A stretch of DNA of 64,000 bases from contig NZ_JACHIR010000001.1 in NCBI RefSeq assembly GCF_014203355.1, positions 2,854,038 to 2,918,037 of the forward strand, given 5' to 3'. The notes below the pieces were generated by a model. The model saw nothing but the letters and a program-made list of their open reading frames with translations, had not been told where the DNA came from and ran no database searches. A program made the translations under genes and the position numbers. The DNA is from Kutzneria kofuensis. GTDB taxonomy: Bacteria > Actinomycetota > Actinomycetes > Mycobacteriales > Pseudonocardiaceae. Each line of letters opens with the position of its first letter. Position 1 is the first letter of the stretch. This document shows, one piece after another, positions 6,886 through 10,163 of this stretch.

Positions 6886-7539
6886 CTCGCCATGGTAGTG
6901 CGGTGCGCCGCCCCAGCAGTACGGCCGACCACCACCCGTTGGGACCAATCCCTGGCCTCTGCCACCGGCGTCGCCAGACAGCGATCTTGGTCTGGAACGA
7001 CCCGTTCTGCATGCAGGCTTGCTTTCGAGGTGGAGACAACCACGCATCCGTCAGGTGCTCCAGCAGCAACTGGCACACGTGCTGCGCGACGCCACCCTGC
7101 GGGGTTCCGGAAGTCCGCCCACGTATCCGACCTGCGGCGATGGGAAATTCAGCGGGCAGGGCATGATCGCCAGCCATGGCGCTGCGTCTGCTCTACCTGA
7201 TCTTCCTCAGGCTTGTGGGCCTGCTGGTGCTACTCGGCCGCTCCTCGGCGTCCAAGGACGCCGAGTTGCTGGTGTTACGCCACGAGGTCGCCGTGCTGCG
7301 CAGCAAGAACCCAAGACCTCGCCTGGACTGGGCAGACCGGGCTGTGATCGCCGCGCTGGTCCGCCTGCTGCCCACGGGGCTGCGGCTGCACCGGTTGGTC
7401 ACCCCGGGCACGATCCTGCGTTGGCATCGGCGCCTCGTAGCGCAAAGTGGACCTAATGACTCGTGAACGACCGCCGGTGACGCCTCTGAGTTACCCAGGG
7501 CGGTAGACCTGCGTCCAGGCCGGCGCACTGGTTGGTCGT

Positions 7540-7915
7540 TCTGGATGGTCGAGTGCGAGCAGGACGCCTTAAGTGGACCATGGCAGCAGCCTTCTTGGTG
7601 TAGACCGGCGCCTCTCGCCTCGACATCCTCCTCACTCGTTCCGTTGACGCCTGGCGATACCTCGGGCCACGAGCCCTCCAGCTAAGACCGCGCCGACAAC
7701 GGAACCGGAGGTGGTGGTGGCCAGCACGGTCGCCACCGCCTCGTTGATCAAGATGGTCGTCGTGATTCGAGCCCGTCCGCACGGAGGACACCTCGTTGGC
7801 CGGGAGCCGCATGAGCTCTTCGTCGAGACCGGTGCCCGCGCGGATCGCTGGGATCGTGAACGGCTCAATCGGAGGTCAGGCCATAGAGCCTCGTCATTAG
7901 GGCGCCGCGCGTTCT
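7540..7915 (+). ncRNA. candidate bridge RNA of the IS110 element
   Basis: The noncoding 5' end contains four guide-like segments. For the donor (element ends): ATCGGAGGTC at 7868-7877 is identical to the right end at 9227-9236, and GTCATTAG at 7893-7900 is the exact complement of the left end CTAATGAC at 7453-7460. For the target: AAGTGGACC at 7571-7579 is identical to the left target flank at 7445-7453, and GGTGTAG at 7597-7603 complements CT plus the start of a right target (partial fit). Spacing inside the two guide pairs is similar (15-17 bases). The outer limits of the RNA are a guess, and the two loops lie unusually far apart. Confidence 0.75.
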
Positions 7916-7967
7916 CACCAGGGTCTCGTTGACCAGCACAAACAGCCAGTTCGAGGAGAAACACAGA

Positions 7968-9215
7968 GTGAAGGTGTTCTGCGGGATCGACTGGGCCGAG
8001 GACCACCACGACGTCGCCCTGATCGACGCCGACGGCGGTCTGGTGGCCAAGCGTCGCATCGGCGACTCCGCCATGGGGTTCGCCGAGCTGATGACGATGC
8101 TCGCCGACGCCGGCGACATCGCCGAGGCCCCGATCCCGGTCGCGATTGAAACCCCGCGCGGCCTGCTGGTTTCGGCCCTGCGCCAGACCGGCCGCCGCGT
8201 CTACGCCATCAACCCGATGGCCGTCGCCCGCTATCGCGAGCGCCACACCGTCGCCCGCAAGAAGTCCGACCACGTCGACGCCATGACGCTGGCCAACATC
8301 CTGCGCACCGACGCTCACGCCCACCGGCCGCTGCCCGCTGACAGCGACCTCGCCCGCGCCGTCGCAGTGCTCTCCCGTGCCACCCAAGATGCCACCTGGC
8401 GTCGCACCCGCGCCACCCAGGAACTGCGGGCAGTGCTGCGCGAGTACTACCCAGGGTTCCTGGCCGCCTTCGCCAAGGGCACCGTCACCAACCTGGCCAG
8501 CCCAGAGGCCCGCGCCGTCCTGGCTCTCGCGCCAACCCCAGCGGCCGCAGCAAAGGTGACGAAGACACAGTTGGCCGCCGCACTACGCAGGGCCGGCCGC
8601 CAGCGCGGCATCGAGGATCTGGCCCTCCAGTTATGCCAAGCCCTGCGCGCCGAGCAGCTGCGACAGCCACCTGCCGTCGAGGACGCGTTCGGCAGTCAGG
8701 CCCTCGCTCTGCTCGGCACCCTGAACGCCGAGTGCGCCGCCGTCGATCAACTCAGCCAGACCACCGCGGAACTGTTCCAACAACACCCCGACTACGCCGT
8801 GATCACCAGCTTCCCTGGCCTGGCTGACCTATCTGGAGCCCGGGTGCTCGGCGAGATCGGCGATGACCGCAGCCGGTTCGCCGACGCCCGCGCGCTCAAG
8901 GCATACGCCGGCTCCGCACCGGTCACGAGGGCATCCGGACGCAGCATCTCGATCACCCGCCGCACCGTGAAGAACGACCGGCTCAACGCCGCCGGGTTCC
9001 TCTGGGCCTTCGCTGCGATGGCGAAGACCGGGGCGCCCCAAGAGCACTACCGGCGTCGCCGAGAACGCGGTGACCGACACGCTGCCGCCTTGCGGCACCT
9101 GTTCAACCGCTTCCTCGGCCAGCTCCACCATTGCCTACAGACTGGAGAGCACTACGACTCGATCAAGGCGTTCGGGCCGATCGACGACACACCCGCCCAG
9201 GCCGCCGCAGCTTGA
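7968..9215 (+). CDS. IS110-family DEDD recombinase
   Basis: 415 residues. The N-terminal RuvC-like domain has GIDWAEDHHDVALIDADG (Asp), AIETPRG (Glu) and KKSDHVDAMTLANIL (Asp-Asp). The C-terminal Tnp domain has FPGLADLSGARVLGEIGD and YAGSAPVTRASGRS with the expected Ser. I chose the GTG at 7968 because GAGGAG sits 9 bases before it; an in-frame TTG at 7929 has no ribosome site. The protein should act with the upstream bridge RNA to recombine donor and target at CT cores. It looks full length and intact. Confidence 0.9.
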   Translation: MKVFCGIDWAEDHHDVALIDADGGLVAKRRIGDSAMGFAELMTMLADAGDIAEAPIPVAIETPRGLLVSALRQTGRRVYAINPMAVARYRERHTVARKKSDHVDAMTLANILRTDAHAHRPLPADSDLARAVAVLSRATQDATWRRTRATQELRAVLREYYPGFLAAFAKGTVTNLASPEARAVLALAPTPAAAAKVTKTQLAAALRRAGRQRGIEDLALQLCQALRAEQLRQPPAVEDAFGSQALALLGTLNAECAAVDQLSQTTAELFQQHPDYAVITSFPGLADLSGARVLGEIGDDRSRFADARALKAYAGSAPVTRASGRSISITRRTVKNDRLNAAGFLWAFAAMAKTGAPQEHYRRRRERGDRHAAALRHLFNRFLGQLHHCLQTGEHYDSIKAFGPIDDTPAQAAAA

Positions 9216-10163
9216 CACTTAGCGAGATCGGAGGTCTATCCACACCGGGTCGGCCGCCCGCCCATCGATGAGGCGATCGCCGGCCTGATCGAACAGATGG
9301 CCACCGAGAACCACACCTGGGGCTACAAAAGGATCCAGGGCGAACTGCTCAAACTCGGCCACCAGGTCGGTGCCTCCACCATCCGGCGGAGCCTGAAGCG
9401 GGCACACATACCTCCCGCGCCGGACCGGCACAGCGACACGACCTGGCGGCAGTTCCTGCGCACGCAAGCCTCGACCATACTGGAGTGTGACTTCTTCCAC
9501 GTCGACTGCGCGCTCACCCTCCAGCGGATCTACGTGTTCTTCGTGCTGGAGGTCGGCACCCGCTACGTCCACGCCCTCGGCACGACAACCAATCCCGACG
9601 GCGGGTGGACCACGCAGCAGATCCGCAACCTCGTGATGGACCTCGGTGATCGAGCCGATGAGTTCAGGTTTCTTGTCCGCGACCGTGTCGGCCAGTTCGC
9701 GGCCTCGTTCGACGCCGTCCTGGCCGACGTGGGCATCACGCCGGTCAAGATCCCTCCGCGTTGTCCGCGGGCGAACTGCTATGCGGAACGGTTCGTGCTC
9801 ACCGTCAGAAACGAGGTCACCGATCGCATGTTGATCCTGGGCCAGCGGCATCTGGACGCCGTGCTCGCCGAGTACGTCCGGCACTACAACGGTCGACGCC
9901 CACACCGTTCCCGCGAGCTCCGCCCACCCCACCCGACCTACCCGGTGGCAGACCTCAGCTCCCGGCGGATCAAACGACAGCGGCTCCTCGGAGGCCTGAT
10001 CAACGAGTACGAACGGGCCGCGTAAAACTGCTGGTCAGCACTGGTGAACTACTTTTGAAACCCCACACGCGCCGTTCACACCAGTCCATGACGCTCTGCC
10101 CGCATCGGTCTCGGCAGTCGCACTCGGGGCAACGGCCAACGTGCAGCCCACCCGCAGCGTCCA

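Follow-up and report, generated by a model that had tools for sequence, protein, structure and literature searches.

An IS110-group element in a transposase gene of Kutzneria kofuensis

The window analyzed here is a stretch of 64,000 nt from Kutzneria kofuensis (GCF_014203355.1, contig NZ_JACHIR010000001.1, positions 2,854,038 to 2,918,037). It harbors an insertion sequence of 1783 bp within a gene for an rve transposase. The features of this locus are given below in window coordinates; the E-values of the modules come from a covariance model with short calibration and are rough.

7176..7452, plus strand: 5' part of the host transposase gene, defined by reading frame and three-site comparison, without a Pfam match of its own
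7453..9235, plus strand: IS110-group insertion sequence, three identical copies with common identity over 7445-9238
7453..7967, plus strand: non-coding left end of 515 nt, predicted bridge RNA array
7469..7538, plus strand: module M1, 23.3 bits, E 0.0014
7553..7623, plus strand: module M2, 34.1 bits (unlike the scores of M1, M3 and M4, not independent, as the training modules include an identical copy), flank score 11/13, fits the occupied site
7638..7707, plus strand: module M3, 17.7 bits, E 0.017
7708..7742, plus strand: 15-bp hairpin between M3 and M4, from the MFE fold
7775..7847, plus strand: proximal TBL-like module M4, 22.5 bits, E 0.002, also supported by alignment
7848..7920, plus strand: donor-binding loop with LDG (7868-7877) and RDG (7893-7900), exact matches to both ends
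7968..9215, plus strand: IS110 DEDD recombinase, Pfam DEDD_Tnp_IS110 (2e-34) and Transposase_20 (7.2e-13), PDB matches IS621 and ISCro4
9212..9217, plus strand: -35 box TTGACA of the predicted junction promoter, 17 nt from TCTAAT
9238..10025, plus strand: 3' part of the host rve transposase gene, Pfam rve_3

Three sequence-identical copies of the element are present in this genome, namely the window copy and those at loci L001 and L003. The window copy is exactly identical to the other two over positions 7445-9238, and because this identity ends there, it fixes the ends of the element and the common target. The core CT lies at 7453-7454 and is repeated at 9236-9237; the span of 7453..9237 given in the initial annotation was narrowed to 7453-9235 by comparison of the copies. 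The sites of all three copies read AAGTGGAC-CT-A(C/T)CC(A/G)CACC and occupy homologous positions in related transposase genes. This bears out the insertion point that had been placed around a CT core in the rve transposase gene. At the right end just 20 nt separate the stop codon of the recombinase gene from the core. The two halves of the host gene in the window lie in different reading frames, which is not the case at the L003 site, and because of this difference the window target gene seems to contain a frameshift besides the insertion. The surrounding region is rich in insertion sequences: genes for one and the same 382-aa transposase flank it at 4189-5337 and 10334-11482, the first of which was scanned and identified as DDE_5, and further transposase-like frames occur at 5403-6233 and 11713-12816. 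A second IS110-type element, whose protein is 31% identical, is present elsewhere in the genome in eight copies (L004-L011).

The recombinase starts near position 7968 with GTG and contains both domains that define the IS110 group, DEDD_Tnp_IS110 and Transposase_20. IS621 and ISCro4 were its only sequence matches in the PDB at an E-value of 0.01. The catalytic residues D, E, D and D and the serine of the Tnp domain have been named for the IS110 group (PMC11208158). Aligned to IS621 (8wt6), the recombinase has the first D, the DxxD pair and the SG serine at assignable positions, with the E located in a shifted stretch. When position 9235 is joined to 7453-7457, as in an excised circle, a -10 box TCTAAT is formed and the junction reads TTGACA-N17-TCTAAT. 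Junctions with at least five of six -35 bases and at least four of six -10 bases were found in 84 of 86 distinct elements. The -10 match follows in part from the requirement that ends begin with CTA, which leaves the -35 box unaffected. The best-fitting junction spacers over all 86 elements measured 16-18 nt. The circle-junction promoter that is typical for the IS110 group is present here as a predicted sequence.

Donor and target guides of the left end

The initial annotation interpreted the left end as a bridge RNA on the basis of three words, all of which match exactly at every position claimed. The left donor guide ATCGGAGGTC (7868-7877) equals the right end of the element (9227-9236), the right donor guide GTCATTAG (7893-7900) is the reverse complement of the left end (7453-7460), and the left target guide AAGTGGACC (7571-7579) equals the left flank (7445-7453). 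The three guide words appeared in 4, 12 and 7 of 5000 first-order Markov resamples of the 515-nt left end. The element shows features expected of the IS110 group, a long non-coding left end with a donor loop that matches both independently fixed ends and a target loop that matches the insertion site. The donor guides and the left target guide had been correctly identified, but the right target guide (GGTGT-AG, 7597-7603) and the additional target-loop modules described below had been overlooked. The right target guide fits the window site in part, at the core AG and three of the five following bases, wobble included. The distance from core C to AG is 23 nt in the target loop and 22 nt in the donor loop, and 298 nt separate the core C positions of the two loops, of which the target loop comes first.

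The target guides follow their own insertion sites in homologues as well, which was one of the tests on which the bridge-RNA reading had been made to depend. Left and right guide together agreed with the own site at 11 or more of 12 positions in 37 of 69 homologous loci (all loci with both flanks known, duplicates not removed), compared with 26 of 4636 swapped guide-site pairs. The donor match is no independent test in homologues, because it had itself served to locate their ends. Ends stayed unmapped for 36 of 111 loci, some of which were minus-strand loci that were later re-oriented, and for 19 of 56 and 10 of 70 loci of later sets; three of the 19 were resolved by hand. In seven compact loci scoring at least 10, the core C positions of target and donor loop are 73-78 nt apart. 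Four of the five host genes that were tested encode transposase domains, which belong to rve, to IS110 itself and to two DDE types.

A tandem array of target-loop-type modules

A plain long linker between the two loops had been our first idea, and it was displaced by an alignment of homologues together with a covariance search. The covariance model was built from 33 of 38 target modules, all matching their sites; the five omitted were mostly near-duplicates. In window positions 7300-9400 this model detected four modules, all on the plus strand and inside the left end, with the next best hit at 11.6 bits. The modules are ~70 nt long, their starts are 73-137 nt apart, and together with the donor loop they span ~450 nt. 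M2 carries the guides that correspond to the occupied site (left AAGTGGAC+C, 7571-7579). M1 harbors a left guide TGAGTTAC+C (7487-7495) and a right guide TGCGTCC-AG (7510-7518), which predict the target TGAGTTAC-CT-GGACGCA, a target unused by the three copies of this genome. The guides of M3 are GGCGATAC+C (7653-7661) and CCAGCTA-AG (7678-7686), with the predicted target GGCGATAC-CT-TAGCTGG. The left guide of M3 is kept in L123 (8/8) and L135 (7/8), and the changes in its stem are compensatory. In the genome of K. kofuensis itself, sites resembling the M1 target with up to three mismatches were no more frequent than those of a reversed-pattern control (62 vs 65), the corresponding numbers for M3 were 41 vs 96, and no exact site was found for either. 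An alignment of 55 homologues shows that M4 and the target loop of compact relatives are homologous; M4 is apparently not the usual target guide. Many genomes of the family contain, at other places, short stretches similar to the hairpin that separates M3 from M4.

The bridge-RNA reading had left the fold of this region to be checked for internal loops holding the guides and for covariation in homologues. In an unconstrained fold of 7460-7935 (z -2.08), M1, M2, M3 and M4 formed stem-loops, whereas the donor loop was not clear in this full-length fold; folded singly, the modules had only a small advantage over shuffles (z -0.5 to -2.0). The fold of the target modules covaries among homologues, with changes on both sides at 15 of 15 pairs and 106 cells compared with 51 in shuffles, although this structure was partly chosen on the same data, because the two outer helices were picked by pairing-register comparison on the alignment and then counted. 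RNAalifold recovered the apical hairpin only from the module alignment. An Rfam search of the window at gathering scores yielded two tRNAs and no bridge RNA. Overall, the interpretation as a bridge RNA is supported by the guides that follow their sites and by the covarying modules. It was incomplete, since the left end consists of four tandem target-loop-type modules and one donor loop: the bridge-RNA logic of IS621 holds, but its layout with a single target loop does not.

Arrays and module switching among relatives

Distal modules were counted in 122 distinct left ends, where distinct means not identical, so that near-identical ones count separately. Sixteen contain none, 60 one, 35 two, 9 three and 2 four, and 46 of 122 thus carry at least two. 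In 40 of these 46 arrays some module fits the occupied site at 10 or more of 13 positions (39 at 11 or more); the 46 and the 40 include L123, the score of which was set by hand from the left flank only. The best-fitting module was the first in 23, the second in 14, the third in 2 and the fourth in 1 of the 40. No module fits the site in the remaining six (L258, L287, L309, L310, L321 and L358), and a scan of their left ends up to the donor loop gave no fit either. L310 and L335 share one genome and the same site sequence, which is explained by none of their array modules, and the left flank of L258 resembles its own right end, as though the element had inserted beside another copy. In an earlier set of 21 arrays, 19 matched their own insertion site at 11 or more positions, compared with 23 of 1718 comparisons with the sites of other elements; at a threshold of 10/13 this background was 128 of 1718.

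In other actinomycetes, near-identical elements were found at sites that correspond to different modules. Three pairs, each from a single genome and with 0-1 mismatch over the whole element, occupy different sites that are explained by different modules. L305 and L332 differ at one position in 1708 bp, which is the sole difference in their left ends and falls outside the module guides, and match their sites through M1 (13/13) and M2 (13/13), respectively. L023 and L024 (1 mismatch in 1846) correspond to M1 (12) and M4 (13), and L308 and L334 (0 mismatches in 1696) to M1 (13) and M2 (11). Between genomes, L347 used M1 and L355 used M2, the compared left end being 97.6% alike. Modules that are unused in their own copy were also compared with the sites of other elements, and 7 of 32 matched at 12 or more of 13 positions (4 at 13). 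In the same test this threshold was reached by 1 of 48 proximal modules, none of them at 13, and by 22 of 1280 shuffled modules, one of which scored 13. The proximal module seldom fits its own site (7 of 76 at 10 or more, one of them, L319, at 12).

In a recombinase tree of 77 of 80 elements, all but one of the 16 that lack a distal module lie on one side of a branch with support of 100/99. The left end of the exception, L108, is doubtful. Arrays of at least two modules are spread over several branches of the tree.

A probable multi-target bridge RNA

The modules, the donor match, the target match and the switching between modules in relatives are present in the sequences themselves, and from these we infer that the bridge RNA of this IS110-group element is very probably a multi-target array, including its transcription, processing and activity. 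The tandem target loops and the module switching between near-identical copies mark the element as a new variant rather than a plain member of the IS110 group. According to the proposed mechanism, excision would yield a circle in which the right and left ends are joined, and the junction promoter thereby formed would drive transcription of the left end. The transcript would fold into three distal target-binding modules, followed by the proximal TBL-like module and a single donor-binding loop. Pairing could then take place between a recombinase dimer on the donor loop and a dimer on any single target module, and the module that finds its site would steer insertion to the CT core. M2 would have directed the three insertions of this genome, with M1 and M3 as alternative guides. 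In IS621, the two loops of one complex stem from different RNA molecules. The long spacing between the loops need not matter for this reason.

Single words of 8-10 nt do recur in a GC-rich non-coding region, if at a low rate, but it is exceedingly improbable that the guides are chance matches of this kind, as the same geometry and guide-site match are found in many homologues and the swap controls are far below the own-site score. An alternative is that the target modules are never active together: a single one would work at any given time, and the rest would be remnants of earlier retargeting that have so far escaped decay. M2 alone is in use in the window, and the proximal modules of L035, L038, L045, L046 and L054, with own-site scores of 10-11, look like decayed sisters of distal modules. 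Nevertheless, we regard this alternative as unlikely, because near-identical elements within one genome use different modules, unused modules fit sites that are held by other elements, and the guide of the unused M3 is kept across elements.

The extra modules might also be protein-binding or regulatory RNA structures and not guides. This would agree with the conserved hairpin that M4 retains and with the rare fit of proximal modules to their sites, and M4 may have such a role; for the extra modules as a whole it is very unlikely, since the left and right guides of distal modules jointly match occupied sites. Beyond the multi-target array of this element, we lean slightly towards the broader view that the bridge RNAs of this actinobacterial IS110 clade are evolvable arrays. 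Their modules may be gained, lost and swapped as units and are probably cut into single target-loop RNAs that act in trans with the shared donor loop. This would provide one insertion sequence with several programmed destinations, a large share of which lie in the transposase genes of other mobile elements.

Comparison with known guide-RNA systems

The element resembles IS621 and ISCro4 in its related recombinase, the bridge RNA encoded by the left end, the logic of LTG/RTG and LDG/RDG, the CT core and the predicted junction promoter. In IS621 there is one target loop and one donor loop, with core C positions 73 nt apart and distances from core C to AG of 22 nt in the target loop and 34 nt in the donor loop (values computed from PMC11208158). 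The spacing of 23 nt in the target loop of the window element is close to that of IS621, whereas the 298 nt between the loops, the 22 nt in the donor loop and the four TBL-type modules differ from it. The window element does not have the single unit of ~177 nt with one target and one donor loop that defines the IS621 type. Members of the IS1111 group encode their guide RNA in the right end and are further marked by long subterminal inverted repeats; judged by the position of its guides, which lie in the left end, the window element does not belong to this group.

For ISEc21, an upstream non-coding RNA guides targeting, and the targets are located in IS3 transposase genes (PMC11187229). This is a precedent for targets in transposase genes. 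ISEc21 differs in having a seekRNA of 74 nt and a longer form, and the main text of that report contains none of the words "array", "tandem" and "multiple target". The authors of the work on TIGR-Tas describe the bridge RNAs of IS110 as a single two-stem unit (PMC12045711). TIGR-Tas systems are similar in that tandem guide units serve one protein of a structurally related kind. However, they combine Tas proteins with an array giving 36-nt tigRNAs, whereas the window element combines an IS110 recombinase with ~70-nt modules and falls outside that type. Among the open-licence papers searched on bridge RNAs, IS110, seekRNAs, loops and arrays, none was seen to describe several target loops in one bridge RNA.

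The minicircle IS117 of Streptomyces coelicolor has the end AGCCCCCTGAGATGT|CTA, and two consensus classes can be distinguished among the sites at which it integrates in two hosts (PMC2194683). The end resembles the right ends of the clade studied here, e.g. that of L260, and the two site classes are what an array would predict. L260 (1501-3448) is an IS117-family element on plasmid pSLE2 of Streptomyces leeuwenhoekii in which a gene annotated as DinB-family separates the recombinase from the right end; it contains three distal target modules, and its site fits the third. Judged by the end sequence and the annotation of L260, IS117 appears to be a relative of this clade. A cloning primer of IS117, searched in 295 Streptomyces genomes, detected a widespread chromosomal locus that is not IS117.

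Bridge recombinases are studied as programmable tools for DNA insertion, and the descriptions consulted here assign a single target loop to each RNA. A natural array would show that several target loops can be combined with one donor loop in a single RNA and that long spacers between the loops are tolerated. It would also illustrate how a transposon guided by RNA can broaden and alter its range of targets, and it may explain the two classes of integration sites of IS117.
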